10,274 nt of DNA. Origin: Deltaproteobacteria bacterium. GTDB lineage: Bacteria > Desulfobacterota > Syntrophia > Syntrophales > UBA5619. The notes beneath the pieces were generated by a model. It did no database searches, was not told where the DNA came from, and was given only the letters and a program-made list of their open reading frames with translations. The stretch spans positions 1-10,274 of the forward strand of contig JAPLJW010000185.1 of the NCBI GenBank assembly GCA_026388365.1. The letters run 5' to 3'. Every line of letters begins with the position of its first letter. Within the stretch, counting starts at the first letter, position 1. Shown one piece after another: positions 2 through 10,265 of the stretch. The position numbers and the translations under genes were made by a program.

Positions 2-547
2 CCGGACTGCGTCCCCGATGAGACGCTTGCGCTGATTCGATCCTACGCCGAGCGGTCTCACGTCTGGCTGGAGTTCGGCCTCCAGTCGATCCACGACCGG
101 ACGCTTGGGGCGATCAACCGGGGCCACGACGCGGCAGCCTTCCGCGACGCCGTCCGTCGCGCCTCTGGTGGGCCCATCCTGATCTGTGCCCACATTATCG
201 TGGGGCTTCCCGGCGAGACCCGCGAGGAGATCCTGGAGACGGCCAAGGCGATCGCCTCATTGCCGGTTCAGGGAATCAAGATTCACAGTCTCCTAGCTTT
301 GGAGGGGACGGCGCTCGGCGGGCGTTTCAAGCGGGGAGAGATCACCCTGATGACCCGGGCGTCCTATGTCGGCGCCGTCTGCGACATCCTGGAAATTCTA
401 CCGCCGGAGATGGTCATCCAGCGGCTGACTGCAGACGGCTACCGGGAGATATTCCTCGGCCCGGCGTGGGCGGGAAATAAACTCGCCGTCCTCAACGCCA
501 TCGACCGGGAGTTAGAAGCGCGCGACAGTTGGCAGGGGAAACGGTAG
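2..547 (+). CDS. Radical SAM protein, YhcC/TIGR01212 family (3' part; start is outside the window)
   Basis: The frame is open from the left edge to TAG at 545-547, giving about 181 residues of the C-terminal part. It begins PDCVPDETL, followed by VWLEFGLQS, then INRGH and then HIIVGLPGET. These blocks match the second half of the TIM-barrel in E. coli YhcC-type radical SAM proteins (TIGR01212), a family related to the HemN/Elp3 group. The CxxxCxxC motif that binds the iron-sulfur cluster would lie upstream and cannot be seen. The family's reaction is not firmly established, so no substrate is assigned. The last 25 codons are repeated in decayed form at about 8196-8283, directly before hisH. 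This implies that the gene once sat immediately upstream of hisH. Family assignment is confident; function is not. Confidence 0.88.
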   Translation, partial: PDCVPDETLALIRSYAERSHVWLEFGLQSIHDRTLGAINRGHDAAAFRDAVRRASGGPILICAHIIVGLPGETREEILETAKAIASLPVQGIKIHSLLALEGTALGGRFKRGEITLMTRASYVGAVCDILEILPPEMVIQRLTADGYREIFLGPAWAGNKLAVLNAIDRELEARDSWQGKR

Positions 548-617
548 GAAGAAACGACATGATCGGGATCGTCGACGACCGGGCGGGAAATCCGGCCAGC
601 GTCGCAAGACCGGCGGA
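457..617 (+). repeat. Direct repeat copy 1: radical SAM 3' end plus hisH 5' start
   Basis: This stretch aligns without gaps to 8211-8357 (offset 7,740) from about 471 to 617; upstream of that, similarity continues to about 457 with a one-base shift. By hand count, 94 of 120 bases match between 481-600 and 8221-8340. Here the radical SAM reading frame is intact and the hisH part is dead. The matching copy has the opposite pattern. The pair brackets the exporter locus. Confidence 0.9.
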
Positions 618-669
618 GGCCGTGAATCATATCCGTCTGGCAAAGTCTGTGGGGTTCTGTTATAAGTAG
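559..669 (+). pseudogene. hisH 5' fragment (decayed, about 20 recognisable codons)
   Basis: An ATG at 559 opens a 36-codon frame beginning MIGIVDDRAGNPASVAR and ending at TAG 667-669. The intact hisH at 8299 begins [17 protein letters not shown]. Similarity fades after about 20 codons; the rest of this frame does not resemble HisH. Amino acid changes (Y to D, L to P) and the loss of the other 90% of the gene show that it is a remnant. It lies 11 bases after the radical SAM stop codon, where the intact hisH presumably once stood. It may be translated into a short peptide, but there is no sign of function. Confidence 0.82.
637..666 (+). promoter_or_regulatory. Weak candidate promoter for the MFP gene
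   Basis: CTGGCA (637-642) and TATAAG (661-666) are separated by 18 bases, a mediocre sigma-70-like pair 65 bases before the MFP start. The rest of 548-730 contains the hisH fragment and nothing else recognisable. The MFP gene needs some promoter after the insertion, which is the main argument in favour. Transcription could also simply read through from the radical SAM gene. Confidence 0.22.
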
Positions 670-730
670 CCGAGAATTCGACAAATAGGAACTCTGTAGA
701 AAAACCTGTCCCCGTTCCGGAGAGCCTGTC

Positions 731-1951
731 ATGCCCGCTGAAGACATTGCAAAACTGAAGATTGAAAAATCGGAGAAGATCATCCAGCCCCGCAGGCGCG
801 GAAAGAAGCCGCTTGTCCTTGCAGCCGTCGTCCTGCTCATTCTGACCGCCGGCGGCCTTTACTTCGGCGGCATCCTCGTCCCGGCGATCTCCATCGATGT
901 GACGACCGTTTCCCAATTTTATCCTTCCCAGTCGCTGTCCCTGCTGAACGCCAGCGGCTACATCGTCGCCCAGCGGAAAGCCGCGGTGGCTTCCAAGGTG
1001 ACGGGCCGTCTGGTGGCGCTGATGGTGGAGGAAGGGAGCAAGATCAAAGAGGGAGACGTGATCGCTCGCATGGAGAATATCGACGTATCCGCAGTCAGAG
1101 ACCAGGCCGCAGCCAATCTGAACACGGCCCGCGCCACCCTGGAACAGACCCGGGCGGATCGGGACAACGCCCTGAAGGAGTATGAACGCTACAAACAGCT
1201 CATTGCCAAAGAATATGTCTCCAGGTCCGATTATGAGGCGGTGGAGACGCGCTACCGGCGGGCCGTTGAAGGGGTGAAGGCGGCGGAAGCCGTCGTTCAT
1301 GCCGGGGAGGCTGCGCTGAAAAACGCCGAGGCGGGTCTCGACTACACCCTGATCCGGGCCCCCTTCGATGCCGTCGTTTTGACCAAAAACGCGGACATCG
1401 GCGACATCGTCACCCCCATCGGGGCCGCCGCCAATGCCAAGGCGGCCGTCGTGTCGATCGCCGACATGAACTCCCTGCAGGTGGAGGTGGATGTCTCGGA
1501 AACGAGCATCACCGCCATCCGGGTCGGCCAGCCCTGCAACATCCAGTTGGACGCCCTCCCGGACACGCGGTTCCGCGGGGAGGTCCATGCCATTGTGCCG
1601 ACCGTGGATCGCAGCAAGGCCACTGTGCTGGTCAAGGTTCGCTTTCTAGACAAGGATCGCCGGATGCTTCCTGACATGAGCGCCAAGGTCTCCTTTCTCC
1701 CGCGCAAGCTCGCTCCCGAAGAGATCAAGCCGCGTCTTGCTGCCGCCCGGTCGGCGCTGATCGACCGGAACGGCAGGACATTCGCGTATCTCCTGGAGGG
1801 AAACCGGGTCCGGGAGACGCCGGTCCGGGTTGGGGCCACGTTTGGCGATATGGTGGAGATTCTGTCGGGACTGAAAGCGGGAGACCGCATCGTCGTAACC
1901 CCCCCGAAAGGACTGAAGGACGGATCGCGGATCAAAGTCGCCGAGCGGTGA
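731..1951 (+). CDS. Membrane fusion protein (HlyD/MacA-type periplasmic adaptor) of an ABC exporter
   Basis: This 406-residue protein has a basic N-terminus and one membrane segment at about 27-47, so it is anchored in the inner membrane with its body in the periplasm. The two halves of a lipoyl/barrel-sandwich domain are at about 83-118 (AAVASKVTGRLV, then EGSKIKEGDVI) and 205-245 (YTLIRAPFDAVV, then GDIVTPIG). Between them is an alpha-helical coiled-coil hairpin rich in Ala, Glu and Arg. A beta-barrel (about 245-325) and a membrane-proximal domain follow. Such adaptors link an inner-membrane pump to an outer-membrane channel. The likely partners are the ABC ATPase and permeases at 5018-8032, now separated from it by about 3 kb. 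ATG 731 is preceded by GGAG at 719-722. Codons about 318-362 are duplicated as a remnant at 3324-3474. An RND adaptor would look similar, but the neighbours favour an ABC system. Confidence 0.9.
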   Translation: MPAEDIAKLKIEKSEKIIQPRRRGKKPLVLAAVVLLILTAGGLYFGGILVPAISIDVTTVSQFYPSQSLSLLNASGYIVAQRKAAVASKVTGRLVALMVEEGSKIKEGDVIARMENIDVSAVRDQAAANLNTARATLEQTRADRDNALKEYERYKQLIAKEYVSRSDYEAVETRYRRAVEGVKAAEAVVHAGEAALKNAEAGLDYTLIRAPFDAVVLTKNADIGDIVTPIGAAANAKAAVVSIADMNSLQVEVDVSETSITAIRVGQPCNIQLDALPDTRFRGEVHAIVPTVDRSKATVLVKVRFLDKDRRMLPDMSAKVSFLPRKLAPEEIKPRLAAARSALIDRNGRTFAYLLEGNRVRETPVRVGATFGDMVEILSGLKAGDRIVVTPPKGLKDGSRIKVAER

Positions 1952-1988
1952 GCGTTCCCTCCGCAGAGGGGACAAATTGATGTACGAC

Positions 1989-1996
1989 AAAGGAGG
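1989..1996 (+). promoter_or_regulatory. Strong ribosome binding site of the peptidase gene
   Basis: AAAGGAGG lies 7 bases before ATG 2004. It decides the start, because a longer in-frame reading from ATG 1977 would place this site inside the coding region and put nine polar residues ahead of an otherwise ideal signal peptide. Confidence 0.75.
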
Positions 1997-2003
1997 CAAA
2001 CCA

Positions 2004-3299
2004 ATGAAAAGAAAAGGGTGCGGTGTTTTGGGACGGGTTCTGCTTGTGCTAATCCTGACGGTGCTGTGGATTGCGCCGGCGTCGGCGGACGATAAGACGC
2101 TGCTGGCGGCGATCGACGAACACACGGGGAACTGCAAGGTCGTTTCGCAGAAGATCTTCGAATATAAGGAGCTGGGACAGCAGGAGTTCAAAAGCTCGGC
2201 ACTGTTGAAAGAAGAACTAACGAAGCTCGGATTCAAAGTGACGGGCGATCTGAAGGTTCCCGCTGACTTGGTTAAGGATGGCATTGCCAGAACCGCCTTC
2301 AAAGCCGAGATGGCCGGAAATGGCCCCGGCCCCACGGTGACCCTCATGCTGGAGTATGATGCCCTGGCCAACGGCCATGCCTGTGGCCACAACCTGATTG
2401 CGACCTCGGGGCTGATGGCGGCGGCGGGTCTGGCCAAGGTCATGAAGGACACCCCCGGCCGGGTCTTTGTCATCGGCACGCCTGATGAGGAACGAGGGTC
2501 TCTGGGCGGCGGTAAGGTCGCCCTGCTCGAAGGCGGCCACTTCGATGGCTCTGACGTGGTGTTTATCACGCATGATGCAGACCGATGGAGCCTGGATCAG
2601 CGTTTTCTCGCCATGAAACGGGCCAACTTTACTTTCAAAGGCAAGTCGGCCCACGCCGCTGCGGCGCCCCACAAAGGGATCAATGCCCTGCGCGGCGTTC
2701 TGCTGACCTTCAATTGTGTCGACAATCTGCGTGAACATCTGCGCCAGGATGTGCGCATACACGGCATCGTCACCAAAGGCGGCGCCGTGGTGAACGTTGT
2801 GCCGGAACTGGCCCAGGCAGAGTTTGCCTGTCGAGCCCTCGATACGGCCACCATGGAAAACACCTACAACAAGATCGTAAATTGCGCCAAGGCAGCCGAG
2901 CTCGGTACAGGTGCGACGCTTGAATTCAAGGAGCCCCGGGTCGCCCTCAAAGCGACCGTCGCCGTTCCGGCCCTGCTCGGCACGGTTCGGGACAACCTGA
3001 AGACCCTCGGGATCACCGATAATCAGTTCAAGGATTTCGAGGAATTGGCTTCGTCCGACTTGGGCATGGTCAGCTATTCTTATCCGACGGTGAATCTCTG
3101 GTTTAAGGTCGCCGCGGAAGGTACTGCGCTGCATACCGATGCACTGCGTGAGGCGGCAATCTCCGACGATGGTTGGAAGTCCGCCGTGATCGCCGGCAAG
3201 GCCGTCGCGCTGTCGGCCTACGATATGCTGACGAACCCGGCTAAACTGAAGGCTGTCCAGGAGGGCTTCAAGGAGGCGAAGGCGAAAGAAGGAAAGTAA
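2004..3299 (+). CDS. Exported M20-family metallopeptidase/amidohydrolase (AbgB/PM20D2-like)
   Basis: This 431-residue protein has a Sec signal peptide: KRK, a hydrophobic core, and a probable cut after APASA at residue 28. It is therefore predicted to be periplasmic or secreted. The body follows the M20D peptidase/aminoacylase fold. Probable metal ligands are Cys127 and His129 (HACGHN), Glu162-Glu163 (TPDEE, also the catalytic acid region), His190 (ITHD) and His377 (ALHTDA). The dimerisation-domain motif GKSAHAAAAPHKGINAL is at 213-229. Known relatives hydrolyse amide bonds in N-acyl amino acids, p-aminobenzoyl-glutamate or dipeptides; the substrate here is unknown. Most AbgB-like enzymes are cytoplasmic, so the signal peptide is notable. 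The gene starts 52 bases after the MFP stop, with its own strong ribosome binding site, and is followed by an MFP remnant. This suggests it was inserted between the MFP and ABC genes. Confidence 0.88.
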   Translation: MKRKGCGVLGRVLLVLILTVLWIAPASADDKTLLAAIDEHTGNCKVVSQKIFEYKELGQQEFKSSALLKEELTKLGFKVTGDLKVPADLVKDGIARTAFKAEMAGNGPGPTVTLMLEYDALANGHACGHNLIATSGLMAAAGLAKVMKDTPGRVFVIGTPDEERGSLGGGKVALLEGGHFDGSDVVFITHDADRWSLDQRFLAMKRANFTFKGKSAHAAAAPHKGINALRGVLLTFNCVDNLREHLRQDVRIHGIVTKGGAVVNVVPELAQAEFACRALDTATMENTYNKIVNCAKAAELGTGATLEFKEPRVALKATVAVPALLGTVRDNLKTLGITDNQFKDFEELASSDLGMVSYSYPTVNLWFKVAAEGTALHTDALREAAISDDGWKSAVIAGKAVALSAYDMLTNPAKLKAVQEGFKEAKAKEGK

Positions 3300-3323
3300 C
3301 AAGCCAGAATCGCGTCATGGGGG

Positions 3324-3474
3324 AATCAAGATTTCCCTTCTCCCGCGCAGGCTTGCTCCCGAGGAGATGAGGCCTTGTCTTGCCGCCAGCCGGTCTATTC
3401 TGATGGACCTCAACCGCAGGACATGGGCCTACCTCCTCCAACAGCGATCTGGAAGCACAGAGACCTTTGCGTAA
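3324..3474 (+). pseudogene. Remnant of an MFP gene (duplicate of codons about 318-362)
   Basis: Bases 3324-3437 align without gaps to 1681-1794 of the MFP gene (offset 1,643). By hand count, 81 of 104 bases match from 1691 onward. The translated remnant reads KISLLPRRLAPEEMRP, against KVSFLPRKLAPEEIKP in the intact protein, and continues to AYLLQQ against AYLLEG. The frame stays open up to TAA at 3472-3474, inside the left arm of the palindromic element that begins at 3460. It has no start codon or ribosome binding site and lacks over 85% of the gene, so it is a dead fragment. With the intact copy it brackets the peptidase gene as a direct repeat. Confidence 0.85.
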
Positions 3475-3593
3475 TCCCCTTATTCGTCATTCCGGTGAAA
3501 ACCGGAATGTCTAGGAAACGCTTGATAATACTGGATACCGGCCTTCGCCGGTATGACATAATGGCTGGTTTTATGTAGTTGTGCAAAGGTCTC
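3460..3593. repeat. Palindromic MITE/REP-like element with 11-base terminal inverted repeats
   Basis: The ends are perfect inverted repeats: GAGACCTTTGC at 3460-3470 and GCAAAGGTCTC at 3583-3593. Inside are two perfect hairpins. CATTCCGGT (3488-3496) pairs with ACCGGAATG (3501-3509) around a GAAA loop. ATACCGGC (3535-3542) pairs with GCCGGTAT (3547-3554) around a CTTC loop. The hairpins resemble the common dispersed intergenic repeats of many proteobacteria that carry a palindromic CATTCCGG-type core. There is no transposase gene. The outer ends look like those of a small non-autonomous transposon. No clear target-site duplication is visible. It could fold as RNA and attenuate read-through from the peptidase gene, but it lacks a T-run. 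Confidence 0.8.
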
Positions 3594-3695
3594 GAACAGC
3601 GTACCGAAACCCCGAAGATCCTGGACGGGTTTCTGAAAGGCTTGGGGTATCTGGGGGACGGATCATGAGCCGGATCCACGCCGATCAAATCGTAC
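3594..3695. other. Unassigned intergenic stretch
   Basis: About 100 bases lie between the palindromic element and the promoter of the ATPase gene. A short open frame ending at TGA 3665-3667 reads PKILDGFLKGLGYLGDGS, which looks like the tail of a real protein. I cannot identify it, and it does not clearly continue the MFP remnant to its left. No start or ribosome binding site accompanies it. It may be a further scar fragment. Confidence 0.35.
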
Positions 3696-3724
3696 TTGAC
3701 ACCCAACAATGCTGTGAGTAAAAT
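3696..3724 (+). promoter_or_regulatory. Strong sigma-70-type promoter upstream of the ATPase gene
   Basis: TTGACA (3696-3701) and TAAAAT (3719-3724) are separated by exactly 17 bases, a near-consensus promoter. Transcription would start near 3731, giving a leader of about 60 bases before ATG 3793. The local sequence is AT-rich compared with its surroundings. It is the best promoter in the window and could also serve the ABC and permease genes downstream. Confidence 0.72.
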
Positions 3725-3744
3725 CGCTCAGCGTATTGAGTAAA
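3715..3744 (+). promoter_or_regulatory. Tandem TGAGTAAA repeats over the -10 box and early transcript (possible operator)
   Basis: TGAGTAAA occurs at 3715-3722 and again at 3737-3744, 22 bases apart, close to two helical turns. The first copy overlaps the -10 box. This is the geometry expected of a repressor binding as paired units. No regulator gene is nearby, so the reading is speculative. Confidence 0.3.
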
Positions 3745-3792
3745 TTGTATATCATATGTTGTCTGCACCGTTCATTGAGGAGATTCATAAGG

Positions 3793-4989
3793 ATGTATCA
3801 CCGCCCCATGTATGATACGTTGGTCAAAAGGATGCAGGAACCACGTCGATTCATCCAGGTCCTCGTCGGACCGAGGCAAACAGGGAAGACAACGCTCGTG
3901 CACCAAGTTGCGGATAATACCCCCATCCCGGTCCACTATGCCTCCGCAGACGAGCCCACCCTCCAGAGCCGGACATGGATCGAGCAACAATGGGAAACAG
4001 GAAGACTCCTGGATGCCGAGACGAAGGGCAAGGGCGGGGCGCTCTTGATTCTGGATGAAGTCCAGAAGGTGACCGGTTGGTCCGAGGTGGTTAAAAGGCT
4101 CTGGGATACCGACACCCGAAACAAACTCTTCCTCAAGGTCCTTCTCCTGGGGTCGGCACCCCTTCTGATTCAGCGGGGATTAACGGAAAGTCTCGCCGGC
4201 CGGTTTGAGATCCTTCCCGTGACCCACTGGTCCTATGCCGAAATGCGGAAGGCCTTCGGATGGGATCTTGACCGCTATATCTATTTCGGCGGCTATCCCG
4301 GTGCGGCCAACCTGACTGCCGACTGGCAGCGCTGGTCGCGCTACATCATCGATTCGCTCATCGAGACGACCCTTTCCCGCGACATCCTGCTTTTGACACG
4401 GGTCGACAAACCCGCGCTGCTCAGGCGTCTTTTCCAACTCGGATGCACCTTCTCAGGACAGATCCTTTCCTACCAGAAGATGATCGGGCAACTTCAGGAC
4501 GCGGGCAATACGACGACTCTGGCCCATTACCTGGAACTGCTGACCGGCGCGGGCATGCTGACAGGCCTGCAAAAGTTCGCCGCACATCAGGTCCGCGAGC
4601 GGTCGTCGAGCCCCAAGCTTCAGGTATTGAACACGGCGCTCATCAGCGCGCAGTCGCGGCTGACCTTCGATGAGGCCCGAAAGGACAGGGAGTTCTGGGG
4701 CAGGCTGGTGGAATCGGCGGTCGGCGCTCATTTGATCAACAGCGCCGCAGGAACGGGCGTCGAACTGTTCTACTGGCGCGAGCGTGGCCGGGAGGTCGAT
4801 TTCATTCTACGTTCCGGCAAGACCGTGGTCGCCATCGAGGTCAAGAGCGGCTCACACAAGGAGGGGCTTCCGGGGATGGACGCTTTTGACAAGATCTTCA
4901 AGCCAAAGCGAAAACTATTGGTCGGCGGCGACGGCATTCCTTTGGAGAAGTGCATGCTCACCCCGGCTGCAGATTGGGTTTCAGGATGA
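3793..4989 (+). CDS. AAA ATPase with DUF4143 C-terminal domain
   Basis: This 398-residue protein has a Walker A motif GPRQTGKT at 26-33 and a Walker B motif LLILDEVQK at about 84-92. A sensor-like strand LLLGSAPLL spans about 117-125, and GRF at 136-138 may carry the arginine finger. The segment YFGGYPGA (164-171) and the C-terminal block GREVDFILRSGKTVVAIEVKSG (332-353) are typical of AAA_14/DUF4143 proteins. The pattern EVD...EVK resembles a PD-(D/E)xK nuclease-like core. The biological role of the family is poorly known; members are often scattered as single accessory genes, which fits here. ATG 3793 is chosen because GAGGAG lies 10 bases upstream; an in-frame TTG at 3736 would add an unconserved leader. 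The gene has its own promoter and stops one base before an alternative ABC start, so it may lead an operon. Confidence 0.9.
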   Translation: MYHRPMYDTLVKRMQEPRRFIQVLVGPRQTGKTTLVHQVADNTPIPVHYASADEPTLQSRTWIEQQWETGRLLDAETKGKGGALLILDEVQKVTGWSEVVKRLWDTDTRNKLFLKVLLLGSAPLLIQRGLTESLAGRFEILPVTHWSYAEMRKAFGWDLDRYIYFGGYPGAANLTADWQRWSRYIIDSLIETTLSRDILLLTRVDKPALLRRLFQLGCTFSGQILSYQKMIGQLQDAGNTTTLAHYLELLTGAGMLTGLQKFAAHQVRERSSSPKLQVLNTALISAQSRLTFDEARKDREFWGRLVESAVGAHLINSAAGTGVELFYWRERGREVDFILRSGKTVVAIEVKSGSHKEGLPGMDAFDKIFKPKRKLLVGGDGIPLEKCMLTPAADWVSG

Positions 4990-5005
4990 AATGGTCTTGA
5001 GCGCG

Positions 5006-5012
5006 GGGGGAG
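5006..5012 (+). promoter_or_regulatory. Ribosome binding site that favours a TTG start for the ABC ATPase
   Basis: GGGGGAG lies 5 bases before TTG 5018. The alternative, ATG 4991, has only AGGA four bases upstream and would add nine residues (MVLSAGGVD) not expected in the family. Confidence 0.5.
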
Positions 5013-5017
5013 TTGAT

Positions 5018-5725
5018 TTGGCCGAACCGAAACCGCCCATCGTAGAAATCAGGAATATCTTCAAATCCTATCACCGGGAAAGCCTCGACGTCCCGGTCCT
5101 GCAGGACATCACCTTCGACATCGCCGACGGGGAATTCCTGGCGCTGATGGGGCCGTCCGGCTCCGGAAAGACGACCCTCCTGAACCTCCTGGCCGGGATC
5201 GACAAGGCAGACAGCGGGACGATCCAGGTGGGTGGCGTGGAGATCACCGCCCTTTCGGAGACCGAGCTCGCCCATTGGCGCGCCAATAACGTCGGCTTCA
5301 TCTTCCAGTTCTACAACCTGATCCCCGTCCTCAAGGCGGTCGAAAACGTCGAGCTGCCGCTCCACCTGACCGCGCTCTCCGGGCGGGAACGGCGCGAGCA
5401 CGCGGAAATGGCCCTGCGCATGGTGAGCCTGGAGCACCGGATGGATCACTATCCCAAAGAGATGTCCGGAGGCGAGCAGCAGCGGGTCGCCATCGCCCGC
5501 GCCATCGTCACCGATCCCACCCTCCTGGTCGCCGACGAACCGACCGGGGATCTGGACCGCGCATCGGCCGAAGAGATCCTGACGATGATGGAGCGCCTGA
5601 ACGCAGAGATGGGCAAGACCATCGTCATGGTCACCCATGACCCCCGGGCGGCCCAGCGGGCCAAGGTTGTGAGGCTTCTGGACAAAGGATACCTGAACGA
5701 TGCTCCAGCTCAAAATCCTTTTTAG
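5018..5725 (+). CDS. ABC transporter ATP-binding protein (LolD/MacB type)
   Basis: This 235-residue ATPase powers the exporter from the cytoplasmic face of the inner membrane. All motifs are intact: Walker A GPSGSGKT at 45-52, Q-loop Gln97 (FQFYNLIP), signature MSGGEQQR at 149-156, Walker B LLVADEP with Asp173 and Glu174, D-loop GDLD at 177-180, and switch His207. The stretch FIFQFYNLIPVLKAVENVELP is characteristic of the LolD/MacB/FtsE branch that works with FtsX-type permeases. TTG 5018 is chosen as the start because of its ribosome binding site; ATG 4991 is the alternative. The last 26 bases overlap the first permease gene, indicating translational coupling. Its natural MFP partner is probably the protein at 731-1951. 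Confidence 0.93.
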   Translation: MAEPKPPIVEIRNIFKSYHRESLDVPVLQDITFDIADGEFLALMGPSGSGKTTLLNLLAGIDKADSGTIQVGGVEITALSETELAHWRANNVGFIFQFYNLIPVLKAVENVELPLHLTALSGRERREHAEMALRMVSLEHRMDHYPKEMSGGEQQRVAIARAIVTDPTLLVADEPTGDLDRASAEEILTMMERLNAEMGKTIVMVTHDPRAAQRAKVVRLLDKGYLNDAPAQNPF

Positions 5726-6857
5726 GAACGCCTTCCACAACAAGCTTCGCAGCGGGCTGACGATCCTGGGCATCACCGTGGCCGTTCTGGCGTTTGGCGT
5801 GCTGCGGACGGTGATCGGCGCATGGTACGCCGGCGTCGATGCCGCATCGGCGTCCCGCCTCGTCACGCGAAACGCGATCTCCATCATTTTCCCCCTCCCG
5901 ATTGCCTACAACGAAAAGATCCGGCAGATCGAAGGAGTGAAGCTCGTCTCATACGGCAACTGGTTCGGCGGCATCTACATCGACGAAAAGAATTTCTTTC
6001 CGAACTTCTGCGTGGAACCGAGGACCTATATGACCATCTACCCGGAATTCGTTCTCAGCCCCCCGGAGAAGAAGGCCTTCTTTGCCGACCGGAAGGGCTT
6101 TGTCGCCGGAAGGAAGCTGGCGGCGAGATACGGCTGGAAGATCGGCGATCAGGTGACCCTGAAGGGGACCATCTTCCCGGGAAATTGGGATTTCGTCCTG
6201 CGGGGCGTCTATCGGGGCCGGGATAAGACCATCGATGAGACGCAGTTTCTTTTCCACTGGGATTACCTCAATGAAACCATGAAAAAGTTCTTCCCCGGAA
6301 GGGCGGACCAGGTAGGTTTCTACATGATCGCCGTCAAACGACCTGATCTGGCGGCGGATGTCGCCCTAAGCGTGGACCGGTACTTCAAGAACTCTCTCGC
6401 CGAGACGCTCACGGAGACGGAGAAGGCCTTTAATCAAGGATTCATCGCCATGAGCGGGGCCATCGTTACCGCAATCCAGATGGTCTCCTTCGTCGTGATC
6501 CTCATCATCATGGCGGTCGTCGCCAACACCATGGCCATGACCACCCGGGAGCGCATCGGCGATTACGCGATCATGAAAACCCTGGGTTTCGGCGGCGGAT
6601 CAATCGCGGCCATGATCTTCGGCGAATCCCTCGTGATCGCCCTGACCGGCTGCTTCACCGGGATGATTCTGACGTTTCCGGCGGCCAAGGCCTTCGGCCA
6701 AACCCTTTCGACCTACTTCCCCATCTTTATCGTCTCGGCTCAGACGCTCTGGCTCGACCTCCTGGCCGCCCTCCTGATCGCCTTTTTCGCGGCGATCATC
6801 CCGGCCCGCCGTGCGATCCGCGTCGGCATCGCCGAGGGATTACGGAGGATCGGCTGA
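5700..6857 (+). CDS. ABC transporter permease, FtsX/MacB family (first subunit)
   Basis: This 385-residue inner-membrane protein has the four-helix MacB/FtsX layout. One segment lies near the N-terminus (about 18-40), a large periplasmic domain follows (about 41-250), and three C-terminal segments lie at about 253-280, 305-332 and 347-369. The conserved cytoplasmic loop TRERIGDYAIMKTLGF (282-297) contacts the ATPase in this family. The tail PARRAIRVGIAEGLR is also typical. The start overlaps the ABC gene by 26 bases, with AAAGGA 10 bases upstream. The stop overlaps the second permease start by one base (TGATG). It probably forms a heterodimer with that subunit. The substrate is unknown: relatives export lipoproteins, macrolides, peptides or glycolipids. 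Confidence 0.92.
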   Translation: MLQLKILFRNAFHNKLRSGLTILGITVAVLAFGVLRTVIGAWYAGVDAASASRLVTRNAISIIFPLPIAYNEKIRQIEGVKLVSYGNWFGGIYIDEKNFFPNFCVEPRTYMTIYPEFVLSPPEKKAFFADRKGFVAGRKLAARYGWKIGDQVTLKGTIFPGNWDFVLRGVYRGRDKTIDETQFLFHWDYLNETMKKFFPGRADQVGFYMIAVKRPDLAADVALSVDRYFKNSLAETLTETEKAFNQGFIAMSGAIVTAIQMVSFVVILIIMAVVANTMAMTTRERIGDYAIMKTLGFGGGSIAAMIFGESLVIALTGCFTGMILTFPAAKAFGQTLSTYFPIFIVSAQTLWLDLLAALLIAFFAAIIPARRAIRVGIAEGLRRIG

Positions 6858-8032
6858 TGGCCATTCCGCTCTCCTACAGCATGCGGAATCTCTGGAAGCG
6901 CAGGCTGACGACGATTCTTACGGTTTCCGGGATGGCGCTGGTCGTGTTCGTCTTCGCCGCCGTCCTGATGATGGCCGCGGGGCTCCAGAAGACGCTCGTG
7001 GAGACGGGGTCGGACGACAACGTGGTCATCGTCCGCAAGGGATCGGCATCGGAGGTGATGAGCGGCATCGATCGCCGACAGGCCTCGATCGCGGAGATGC
7101 TGCCCCAGGTGGCGATCGGCGGGGAGGGCCGCAGACTCGTGGCCAAGGAGGTGGTGGTTCTGATCGCCCTCCCCAAGCGGGGCGCAGGGAAGACATCCAG
7201 CCATTCCAACGTCGTGGTCCGCGGTGTCCAGGAGGCATCGATCCCGCTGCGGCCGCAGGTGAAGCTCGTCGCGGGGCGACTGTTCCGGATGGGATCGTCG
7301 GAGATCATCGTCGGTAACAGCATCGCCAAGGGGTTCCTGGGGGTCGGGCTCCAGGGAACCCTGAACTGGGGGCAGCGGAGATGGACCGTGGTGGGCATCT
7401 TCGATGCGGGAAATACCGGCTTCAGCTCCGAAATCTGGGGGGACGTGGACCAGGTCATGCAGGCCTTCCGCCGGCCTGTTTACTCGTCGCTCATTTTCAG
7501 ATTGAATAACCCGGCCGCCTTCCCGGCGGCCAAAACGGCGATCGAAACGGACCCGCGGCTCACGCTCGAGGCCAAGCGGGAGACACGATACTATCTCGAC
7601 CAGTCGGAGATGATGGCGAAGTTCCTGCGGATCCTGGGTCTGTCGCTGACGATCATCTTTTCCATCGGCGCGATCATCGGCGCCATGATCACCATGTATT
7701 CGGCCGTGGCCAACCGGATCGGGGAGATCGGAACGATGCGCGCGCTGGGTTTTCGCCGGCGGAGCATCCTGGCCGCATTTCTCGCGGAGTCGCTCCTTCT
7801 GGGTCTCATCGGCGGCGGCACGGGGCTGTTCTTTGCCTCTTTCATGCAGTTCATCACCGTTTCCACCGTGAACTTTCAGACCTTTTCGGAATTGGCATTC
7901 AAATTCACCCTCACCGGGCGCATCGTCCTGCAGGCCATGGCCTTTGCACTCGTCATGGGCTTCATCGGCGGCATGTTGCCCGCGCTCCGCGCCTCCCGGA
8001 TGAGGATTGTTGACGCCCTGCGGGCGGGATAG
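6857..8032 (+). CDS. ABC transporter permease, FtsX/MacB family (second subunit)
   Basis: This 391-residue protein has the same layout as its neighbour: a membrane segment at about 18-42, a periplasmic domain to about 255, and segments at about 258-282, 305-330 and 353-376. The coupling loop NRIGEIGTMRALGFRRRSI (286-304) matches the FtsX consensus better than that of the first subunit. The tail PALRASRMRIVDALRAG is classic for the family. The N-terminal SYSMRNLWKRRLTTILT is the usual start of these permeases. GGAGG lies 8 bases before ATG 6857. The two permeases differ clearly in their periplasmic domains, so they are not a recent tandem copy. No outer-membrane channel gene follows. Confidence 0.93.
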   Translation: MAIPLSYSMRNLWKRRLTTILTVSGMALVVFVFAAVLMMAAGLQKTLVETGSDDNVVIVRKGSASEVMSGIDRRQASIAEMLPQVAIGGEGRRLVAKEVVVLIALPKRGAGKTSSHSNVVVRGVQEASIPLRPQVKLVAGRLFRMGSSEIIVGNSIAKGFLGVGLQGTLNWGQRRWTVVGIFDAGNTGFSSEIWGDVDQVMQAFRRPVYSSLIFRLNNPAAFPAAKTAIETDPRLTLEAKRETRYYLDQSEMMAKFLRILGLSLTIIFSIGAIIGAMITMYSAVANRIGEIGTMRALGFRRRSILAAFLAESLLLGLIGGGTGLFFASFMQFITVSTVNFQTFSELAFKFTLTGRIVLQAMAFALVMGFIGGMLPALRASRMRIVDALRAG

Positions 8033-8195
8033 TGGATGCCAGTCGCCCCCCTTGCTCCCGCTTGCAGTTGCGGCTGTCTCGGGATATAGTCCTCCTGCCA
8101 CCGATCGAGCAGATGCTTTGAGCGGTATCCCAAGGCGAAGATGACTTGGGCGCCACCTGTCCCGGATCCGCTTGACGCGGTGGAGTTAGGCTTAC
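8033..8195. other. Intergenic scar between the exporter and the hisH region
   Basis: There is no convincing gene. A 6-base inverted repeat, CCCAAG (8129-8134) and CTTGGG (8145-8150), has a 10-base loop and no T-run, so it is not a good terminator. On the minus strand, 8154-8081 encodes GAQVIF and later DRWQEDYIP. These resemble GTQVIF and DRSEEDDIP at HisH residues 81-95, but with about ten extra codons between them. This may be an inverted, decayed hisH piece or a chance match. Confidence 0.35.
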
Positions 8196-8283
8196 GGGCC
8201 CGGTTATCTGCGGGGAACAAACTCGCCGTCCTCAACGTCATCGGCCGGGAGCCGGAGACACGCGACAGTCGGCAGGAGAAAAG
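8196..8283 (+). pseudogene. Radical SAM (YhcC-type) 3' fragment upstream of hisH
   Basis: In frame, the fragment reads GNKLAVLNVIGREPETRDSRQEKR, against GNKLAVLNAIDRELEARDSWQGKR at the true gene end. The stop codon TAG (545-547) is TGG here (8285-8287), so the frame runs on to TGA 8300-8302 across the hisH start. Upstream of 8211 a one-base shift breaks the frame, and before about 8196 the similarity ends. It has no start codon and is dead. Confidence 0.82.
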
Positions 8284-8357
8284 GTGGGGGAGAGATTCAT
8301 GATCGGCATCGTGGACTACCGGGCGGGAAATCTGACCAGCGTCGCCCGGGCGCTGGA
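8196..8357 (+). repeat. Direct repeat copy 2: radical SAM 3' end plus hisH 5' start
   Basis: This is the partner of the repeat at 457-617, aligned gaplessly from about 8211. In this copy the hisH portion (from 8299) is intact and functional, while the upstream radical SAM portion is a fragment. Similarity fades after about 8357. Confidence 0.9.
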
Positions 8358-8934
8358 AAAACTGCATGAACCGTGCATCATTACCCATGATTCCAAATTA
8401 TTGGATGCCGCGAGCCATATCATCTTCCCCGGCGTCGGCGCCGCCGGACAGGCGATGGCGAACATCCGGGAGAACGGCCTGGACGGCCATCTGACAAGAT
8501 GGGTGCGGGAGGGCAAGCCGATCCTCGGGATCTGTCTCGGCACCCAGGTGATTTTCGACCGGAGCGAAGAGGACGACATCCCCTGCCTCGGCATCGTCCC
8601 GGGAGAGGTCAAGCGATTCCCGGCGGATCTCCGGGAGGGGGGGCAAAGGCTCAAGATTCCGCACATGGGATGGAATCGCGTGACCTTCCGGGAGGGCCAT
8701 CCGGTCTTCACAGGAATTCCCGGGGAGGCCGAGTTCTATTTTGTCCACTCCTACTACCCGGCTCCGGCGGATGCGGCCTGGGCCGCAGGCTGGACGGATT
8801 ACGGCATCCGCTTCTGTTCCGCCGTGGCCCGGGGAAACCTCGTTGCGGTCCAGTTCCACCCGGAGAAGAGCGGCCGGCCGGGGCTCACCCTGCTGGCCAA
8901 TTTCTGCGGCTGGAGAGGAAACCATGCTCAGTAA
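8299..8934 (+). CDS. hisH: Imidazole glycerol phosphate synthase, glutaminase subunit HisH
   Basis: This 211-residue class I glutamine amidotransferase takes ammonia from glutamine and passes it to HisF in histidine synthesis, in the cytoplasm. The catalytic triad is visible: Cys79 in GICLGTQ, and His187 and Glu189 in VQFHPEKSG. The oxyanion strand [11 protein letters not shown] is at 43-53. The length is normal. ATG 8299 is chosen over an in-frame GTG at 8284 because GGGGAG (8287-8292) precedes it and because HisH proteins begin MIGIVDYxxGN. The end overlaps hisF by 11 bases. The first 20 codons are duplicated as a dead fragment at 559. Its upstream neighbour was probably the radical SAM gene, so its present promoter is uncertain. 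Confidence 0.96.
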
Positions 8935-9703
8935 ACGGATCATCCCCTGTCTCGATGTCCGCGACGGCCGCCTGACCAAGGGGATCAAATTTAAAGAAAA
9001 CGTGGATATCGGCGACCCGGTGGAGGCCGCGCGGGAATATTACGAACAGGGGGCCGACGAAATCGTCTTCTACGACATCACGGCCTCCGCCGAGGGCCGC
9101 ACGATCATGCTCGATGTCGTAAAAAGGGTTGCCGAAACGATCTTCATTCCTTTTTCCGTAGGGGGCGGCATCGGGACGGTGGAGGAGATGCGGCGGGTGA
9201 TCCTCGCCGGGGCGGAAAAGATCAGCGTCAATTCAGAGGCGGTGAAAAATCACGGCATCATCGCGGAGGGGGCGAGGGCCTTTGGCAGCCAGTGCATCGT
9301 CCTCGGCATGGACGTGAAAAAAGTGCCTGCAAGCAATGAGATTCCTTCCGGATATGAGATGGTCATCCACGGCGGACGGACCGTAACCGGCCTCGACGCC
9401 CTCCGGTGGGCAAAGGAGGCGGAACGTCTCGGCGCGGGGGAGATCTGCCTCAACTCCATCGACGCCGACGGGACTTTAGACGGCTACGAACTCGACCTAA
9501 CCGCGCTGATCTCAAGTCATGTAGGCATCCCGGTGATCGCCTCCGGCGGTGCGGGAAAGCCGGAGCATCTCCTCGATGTCCTCACCCGGGGAAAGGCCGA
9601 CGCCGCCCTGATTGCCTCGATGGTCCACTACCGGACACACACCATCCCGGAGATCAAGAACTTTCTCCATGACCACGGCGTGAAGACAAGGCTGCAGTGG
9701 TAG
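8924..9703 (+). CDS. hisF: Imidazole glycerol phosphate synthase, cyclase subunit HisF
   Basis: This 259-residue TIM-barrel enzyme uses ammonia from HisH to convert PRFAR to imidazole glycerol phosphate and AICAR. The catalytic acids are Asp11 (PCLDV) and Asp130 (LGMDV). Phosphate-binding loops are FSVGGGI at 77-83 and [11 protein letters not shown] at 205-215. [15 protein letters not shown] and DITASAEGR are the HisF variant I associate with deltaproteobacteria, rather than the more usual forms. ATG 8924 is preceded by GGAGAGG and overlaps the hisH end, so the two are translationally coupled. No other his genes are in the window. The last 50 bases overlap the tail of the convergent response regulator gene. 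Confidence 0.96.
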
Positions 9704-10265
9704 GAGAAGTGCCGTTGCCAACGCCTTCCGTATCTTCTTTCGTCTTTGACTTATCCTTATCCAGCAGCCATCGAATTTGGGATTGTTTCAAAATCTCCCG
9801 GCACAGGGTATCGGCCTTCCTCGCCCGTTCGGGTTCCTTCTTTGCGTAATAACCCAGGATCTTTGCCCCTATTTCCTGGAGCGAAAAGGGTTTGATGATG
9901 TAGCCCTCAACACCCAGCGTCATGCAGGACAGGACATCCTCACGGCCGGACAGCGACGTTGCCATCACGATGGTTGTCTTCTTGTCTTCGATGTTTGTCC
10001 GAATCGCTTTCAATATCTGGTACCCGGTCATTTCCGGCAGATATATGTCAAGTATAATGATATCGGGATGCCATTCTTCATAGACGAGAAGCGCTTCTTT
10101 CCCCGAAGCAACCAATTTTTTGTCGAATATTTGATTGAATAGTCCCTTGTCATATAGCAACTGGGTGGTATGGTCATCCTCAACAACCAGTATCTTGATC
10201 TTATCCGTACCACTCGGTGAGCACTGTGGCTCAAGCAGACAATTCACTTCGTCTTTTGACAACAT
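9654..10265 (-). CDS. CheY-like response regulator with FliM-like N-terminal motif
   Basis: This 203-residue protein has one receiver domain (about 22-140). The acidic pocket is Glu29-Asp30-Asp31, the phosphorylated residue is Asp73 ([10 protein letters not shown]), and the switch residues are Thr103 (MATS) and Lys125 (IIKPF). No DNA-binding or enzymatic output domain follows. The tail from 141 is charged, then low-complexity, and its last codons lie antisense to the end of hisF. The N-terminus [11 protein letters not shown] resembles the LSQDEIDALL peptide with which FliM binds CheY. The base composition is visibly more AT-rich than the neighbours, which fits a separate origin. The start is ATG at 10265-10263 with GGAAC upstream; the window ends 9 bases further on, so an earlier start cannot be excluded. 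Confidence 0.85.

Follow-up and report, generated by a model that had tools for sequence, protein, structure and literature searches.

A duplicated radical SAM/hisH junction flanks an ABC exporter locus in a Syntrophales genome

A direct repeat brackets the exporter locus

We analysed a stretch of 10,274 nucleotides, hereafter the window, from a Deltaproteobacteria bacterium of the Syntrophales (assembly GCA_026388365.1, contig JAPLJW010000185.1), in which genes for an ATP-binding cassette (ABC) exporter lie between a radical SAM (RSAM) gene and the genes hisH and hisF, with a copy of the RSAM/hisH junction at either end. All features are on the plus strand unless a strand is given. The window opens with the 3' part of an RSAM gene of the MnmL/YtqA type (2..547; TIGR01212 214 bits, cut-off 180; PF16199) whose 3' end is intact, followed by a decayed hisH start, psi-hisH (559..623, aligning clearly over 559-605 and fading towards ~623), that also occurs in genomes G132 and G129. 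The exporter locus then comprises an upstream region (625..730) that is present upstream of HlyD at other sites in relatives, a HlyD/MacA-like periplasmic adaptor (731..1951; TIGR01730 191 bits; PF16576), a LolD/MacB-like ABC ATPase with a provisional start codon (4991..5725; PF00005; TIGR02211 233 bits, under the cut-off of 308), FtsX-type permease 1 (5700..6857; PF02687), FtsX/MacB-type permease 2, or FtsX2 (6857..8032; PF12704, PF02687), and a trailing sequence (8048..8144) that is common to G129 (97 bp) and partly to G132 (49 bp). Intact hisH (8299..8934; TIGR01855 211 bits, cut-off 105) and hisF (8924..9703; TIGR00735 347 bits, cut-off 295) follow. The gene content, HlyD, an ATPase and two FtsX permeases, is that of a MacAB/LolCDE-type ABC exporter with a HlyD-type adaptor, although the HlyD of the window passes only the broad model TIGR01730, and the ATPase and permeases fall under the cut-offs of the models shown.

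The junction repeat is real. When the two junction regions are aligned with each other, as an earlier note made from the sequence alone had suggested, the best local self-alignment of the window pairs 470..605 with 8210..8345 at 81.8% identity over 137 columns (E 6e-27), scoring 113 bits relative to a maximum of 32.5 bits in 60 Markov-resampled windows. The note had described a gapless alignment of 471-617 with 8211-8357 at an offset of 7,740; at this fixed offset 114 of 147 positions are equal (77.6%), and the two copies are 75% alike across all columns of a pairwise comparison, but the aligner opens three small gaps where a short spacer separates the RSAM stop (545-547) from the hisH start, so the repeat stands while its strictly gapless character does not. 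The left copy has the intact RSAM 3' end, 11 bp from its stop to the hisH start, and a hisH start frame that by eye ends after 36 codons. The right copy retains only ~75 nt of the RSAM 3' end, which with the spacer forms 8210-8297 (psi-RSAM), and then the complete hisH. Reading both copies thus bears out the description of a live RSAM end with a dead hisH start on the left and the converse on the right.

Uninterrupted gene order in related genomes

Relatives were sought through hisH, taking the best 80 of at least 592 stretches, and then in 155 genomes of the order, among which the RSAM part was hit in 134 and hisH in 125 (E to 1e-40), and permease 1 in 62 (E to 1e-60). The detailed comparison took in sixteen relatives (G001, G122, G123, G125-G127, G129-G137 and G139). 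In ten of these (G001, G122, G123, G125, G127, G130, G131, G135, G137, G139) fewer than 400 bp separate RSAM from hisH, and in G122, G123 and G125 the gap between the matched RSAM and hisH stretches is 14-20 bp. As for the remaining six, 2.25 kb lies between the two genes in G126 and 17.6 kb in G132, the genes are on separate contigs in G129 and G134, and G136 has no RSAM match. In G133 a contig ends in the hisH start soon after RSAM and the next contig opens with the same 29 bp; because the adjoining contig ends carry this sequence, G133 is probably uninterrupted as well. Three genomes outside the tree (G120, G121, G128) also have RSAM and hisH within 300 bp. The ancestral order is therefore RSAM-hisH-hisF without interruption, as the earlier note had proposed and as its suggested comparison of related loci now indicates, and the insert in the window is flanked by direct repeats of a sequence that is single-copy in relatives.

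Other genomes have inserts at the same place. Between RSAM and hisH there are 2-8 kb in loci L004 and L020 (genomes G004 and G008) and in G126, and 6-8 kb in G151 and G152. We considered the junction as a hotspot for insertion with duplication and rejected this idea, since no flanking duplication is found at the RSAM-hisH gap in L004, L020 or G126. In G008, another Syntrophales genome, a 2036-aa open frame fills the gap (L020:2461-8571). G130 carries a second RSAM copy followed by a gene named by eye as glycosylase-like (L147:4400-5335), where a binning mixture is possible.

The joints recur in other genomes

In G132 the order is RSAM, psi-hisH, HlyD, a 12 kb stretch that includes AbiE-type genes, ABC, FtsX, FtsX, an Ldh_2 gene and hisH. 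In G129 one contig carries RSAM, psi-hisH and the exporter upstream sequence, and another carries FtsX2, the trailing sequence, psi-RSAM and hisH; HlyD lies on yet another contig, preceded by unrelated sequence, and so is not seen to follow the left joint there. The left joint, from psi-hisH to the exporter upstream sequence, is thus common to the window, G132 and G129, and the arrangement of exporter tail, psi-RSAM and hisH on the right is common to the window and G129. Because of this recurrence an assembly artefact, the objection that the earlier note raised against its own proposal, is unlikely. The left copies of the three genomes form one group at 84-90% pairwise identity. The psi-hisH region of G129 holds an extra insert with CCGTGAATCAT at both flanks (L141:1-345). 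In G134 psi-RSAM precedes hisH (L139:3290-3359), with no exporter gene on the examined parts of its two contigs.

A tree of RSAM, hisH and hisF groups G129 with the uninterrupted G135, G137 and G139 (support 100) and makes the window and G132 sisters (94). Specifically, the G129 RSAM is 87-100% identical to those of G135, G137 and G139 in every 60-column step except the last, where it is 90-95% identical to the left copies of the window and G132 and only 70-73% to the other three. Read by letters, the switch of ancestry falls between window positions 487 and 493, inside the repeat, and because of this change the block probably came into G129 by homologous recombination, the crossover lying within the repeated stretch. 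Loss of the block from G135, G137 and G139 is a possible alternative to such a transfer.

A nested repeat and the composite nature of the locus

The exporter locus holds a second, nested direct repeat that the earlier note overlooked. A segment from the 3' part of HlyD (1684..1794) matches 3327..3437 (psi-HlyD) at 77.5% identity (E 5e-13), so that a HlyD 3' segment is duplicated on either side of an M20-family amidohydrolase gene (2004..3299; TIGR01891 171 bits). Downstream lies an AAA_14-DUF4143 ATPase gene (3793..4989; PF13173, PF13635). Since HlyD and ABC adjoin in six outgroup genomes (G004, G012, G128, G151, G152, G153), with less than 60 bp between the matched stretches, the M20 and AAA_14-DUF4143 genes look like later additions between HlyD and ABC, and the M20 gene apparently entered in the same duplicating style as the exporter insertion. 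The notion of a single exporter block of roughly 7.7 kb is accordingly not sustained, given this adjacency and the M20 gene's own flanking duplication. Relatives of the M20 gene are found in three of 20 close genomes, on contigs differing from that of the exporter, and the AAA_14-DUF4143 gene has a 93% copy on a separate contig in G135. A hairpin-forming element with 16-nt inverted ends lies in the psi-HlyD region (3460..3593; DNA fold z -5.33, 0 of 200 shuffles as stable), and no second full copy of it was found among the loci examined.

Decay of the redundant copies

Mismatches between intact and decayed copies in the window number, by codon position, 4/4/5 for RSAM, 2/1/2 for hisH and 6/6/13 for HlyD, or 12/11/20 in sum, and 31/21/54 in a set of 11 hand-picked pairs that leaves out those in loci L117, L176, L243 and L245. 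Three ortholog yardsticks show a third-position bias. A model in which both copies were constrained fits badly (p 0.011 for the window pairs, 0.004 for the 11 pairs), whereas a model of one constrained and one free copy fits both sets (p 0.90 and 0.74). A uniform model is rejected for the 11 pairs (p 0.0003) but not for the window (p 0.18). The pattern, from small and hand-picked counts, fits copies that were alike when made and of which one then decayed.

The exporter in other genomes

Permease 1 lies on another contig in six of the ten uninterrupted relatives (G123, G127, G130, G131, G135, G137). Four gene families are common to G004, G151 and G152 upstream of the exporter, and few flanking families are common among nine close genomes (G123, G124, G126, G127, G130, G131, G132, G135, G137) as called by a crude gene caller; the exception, seen by eye, is that G130 and G131 have a common gene after FtsX2 and, together with G136, a common gene before HlyD. 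In G123 and G130, HlyD and ABC-FtsX-FtsX are on different contigs. Given the sparse common flanks and this separation, the exporter has been relocated and split more than once. In G135 a match to the first ~208 nt of the ABC gene, which stops short of the contig end, is located 5.4 kb past HlyD (L220:986-1193) and may be another gene-start remnant.

The ABC-FtsX-FtsX genes of the window are 91.9-92.8% identical to those of G123, G124, G130, G132, G135 and G137. At the his locus the identity is 93% for G132 and 82.7-87.9% for G123, G130, G135 (over 795 bp only) and G137, and G124 has no hisH match. Horizontal spread of the exporter was considered as the explanation of its higher identity and set aside, since the exporter also exceeds the his locus in G126 (83.6 versus 79.2) and G127 (85.6 versus 78.5). 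Slower exporter evolution may account for the difference.

Origin of the arrangement

The account to which we lean, with a confidence just past an even chance, is one of insertion-duplication followed by decay. In an ancestor of the window and G132, a tight RSAM-hisH pair (~11-20 bp apart) would have been opened by one event that placed the ABC exporter between two copies of the junction, leaving each gene with one intact end, and the redundant halves, psi-hisH on the left and psi-RSAM on the right, would have been decaying since. The likeliest route would be that exporter DNA together with an RSAM-hisH piece was circular or recircularised and entered by one crossover, with the surplus later lost; an equivalent tandem duplication followed by loss of the surplus would serve as well. 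The M20 gene would have entered between HlyD and ABC later and in the same style, and the junction allele would then have been passed to the G129 lineage through homologous recombination, with a crossover falling within the repeat. That an exporter was placed at the junction with the junction duplicated agrees with the earlier note and follows from the repeat and the uninterrupted relatives. Its suggestion of single-crossover integration or unequal recombination fits too and has laboratory precedent (PMC3240628), but the sequence does not separate it from other duplicating insertions; the inclusion of a circle or tandem duplication, like the order in which the events are placed, is our inference.

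The precedent comes from Escherichia coli, where, according to PMC3240628, 56 of 60 Lac- clones gave a polymerase chain reaction product diagnostic of duplication and 14 sequenced clones had duplications of 109-950 bp; the authors account for these by circular molecules that had lost some of their homology and entered through one crossover. Such Campbell-type insertion-duplication shares with the window direct host repeats of 0.1-1 kb that flank the insert and no need of a site-specific recombinase. It differs in that the window case is old and decayed, its repeat spans two gene ends, and a circular donor is not seen. Merodiploidy by tandem duplication in Streptococcus pneumoniae (PMC3784515) likewise involves a duplicated chromosomal segment with a novel joint, and small duplications without flanking repeats have also been reported there, but those duplications are mostly large, recent and formed between repeats. 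Among the papers listed by our literature searches, none described such a pattern in Syntrophales. The tandem duplication-random loss of mitochondrial genomes also yields reordered genes and decaying redundant copies; the window case differs in being bacterial and in having no full tandem copy left.

Several observations weigh against insertion-duplication as set out here. G132 is without the right psi-RSAM, the Ldh_2 gene occupying its site, and G129 is without ~85 bp that in the window lie between the exporter tail and psi-RSAM, so the right breakpoint is not identical. The right copies are closer to the uninterrupted G123 (82 and 90%) than the left copies are, a relation that one late duplication would not require, and in a tree of hisH only the window pairs weakly with G130 (35) and not with G132. 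We found neither a donor nor an intermediate in which a complete second hisH-hisF adjoins the exporter, and self-comparison of the window reveals no remnant of hisF or of other genes of a duplicated segment between the left junction and the exporter, though such remnants may since have been lost. The length of the repeat at its origin may have differed from that of today. G051, the one genome in which the exporter was seen near hisF (~3 kb downstream), is not a close relative. Finally, some intact/decayed pairs lean towards constraint (G129 RSAM 0/1/5, outside the sum; L013 3/1/8; G134 3/2/9), and the codon-position counts are small and come from pairs chosen by hand.

Among the other explanations, repair of a staggered end or template switching would have the exporter ligated or copied into a break, with filled-in ends, or a fork returning slightly upstream, duplicating ~150 bp once. 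This explains exactly two joints with one flanking duplication and requires no second hisH-hisF, none being seen, but there is no independent sign of such a process and microhomology is not demonstrable at aged joints, and we regard it as unlikely, if the nearest of the rivals. A transposon or site-specific integrase that carried the block and whose gene has since been lost is a doubtful candidate. Integrase islands can duplicate gene ends, but a domain scan of 10 window proteins reveals no recombinase, integrase or transposase, as the earlier note had observed for recombinases, and no recombinase or integrase is present in the 10 longest of the 17 non-exporter frames of the G132 version, those covered by the scan. 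The repeat of 136 bp also spans two genes and is, as that note argued, too long for a normal transposon target duplication.

Equally doubtful is homology-facilitated illegitimate recombination from a diverged donor, in which one gene end would be foreign and the other native. It would account for a native gene-end remnant on the far side of the insert and is known in competent bacteria (PMC3240628), but according to the same paper it generally deletes recipient DNA, and here there is duplication and not deletion. The codon-position pattern further opposes a long divergence of both copies under constraint, and a remnant in G131 is about equally close to the G130 gene (82/106) and to the intact copy (81/106). 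Because the left joint is seen again in G132 and G129 and the right arrangement in G129, an assembly or binning artefact is scarcely credible.

Operons come apart and are reassembled in the course of evolution, but to our knowledge the intermediates of such rearrangement are rarely caught. In the present case a comparison of related genomes lets one read the two joints, the gene order before the insertion, how the redundant halves have decayed and a probable subsequent transfer between species. This suggests how a gene pair 11-20 bp apart can tolerate an insert: once the junction has been doubled, each gene retains one intact end, and we infer that the duplication is what lets such an insert survive selection. 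Operon splitting by junction duplication thereby becomes countable in other genomes. As a tentative and rather speculative generalisation, pieces of Syntrophales operons might move by recombinase-free insertion that leaves decaying gene-end copies of ~0.05-0.4 kb; such duplications might then trace harmless splitting of tight operons, with the duplicated ends supplying the homology through which the resulting alleles recombine into other species.

Gene-end duplications elsewhere

Further gene-end copies were observed at other loci. In G131 a second copy of the FtsX2 3' end lies 6.9 kb further downstream, next to the gene that in G130 comes after FtsX2 (L122:11512-11586 and 18423-18497). In G134 the end of an AMP-ligase-like gene is repeated after RSAM (L140:757-833 and 5151-5227), and HlyD ends are repeated in G122 and G123. 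A Desulfobacteraceae metagenome-assembled genome has a decayed hisH start 6.2 kb upstream of an intact hisH (L013:3785-3860 and 10001-10076), apparently an independent case at the same gene. A young case in G132 (L167:7203-13873), which lends itself to the reading of joints, has genes named by eye as TRAP-transporter-like surrounded by nested remnants of gene ends, 389 bp long at 96% and 45 bp long at 91%.

Isolated two-copy direct repeats number seven in 620,129 bp of G132 (contigs taken by number; one of the seven is from a 13-copy family), four in 400,000 bp of G077 plus G028, and three in 1,266,442 bp of the 80 hisH loci, the lower count in this mixed set being suggestive only. A looser count gives six in G132 (389 kb), seven in other clade loci (268 kb), four in G077 (200 kb) and 27 in G028 (200 kb), 26 of them in one tandem array. 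Clade-specific machinery was considered and rejected, as there is no repeat excess in G132 relative to the two other Syntrophales genomes; because repeat density is similar in the three, gene-end duplication looks like a background process and not the work of special machinery.

We also scored direction, where a 3' end remnant is expected downstream and a 5' start remnant upstream. Clade loci totalling 757,285 bp, some of them selected owing to this finding, gave eight consistent, three inconsistent and eight unclassified cases, relative to two, one and three in the control and two, zero and 11 in the mixed set, all small numbers. The window's own pair was scored inconsistent as the crude gene picker took an antisense frame.

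Other features of the window

We weighed a LolA-like start after FtsX2 and found no support for it, and an Rfam scan of the window gave no match at the gathering score. A response regulator gene (9654-10265, minus strand; PF00072) has a frame that overlaps the end of hisF.

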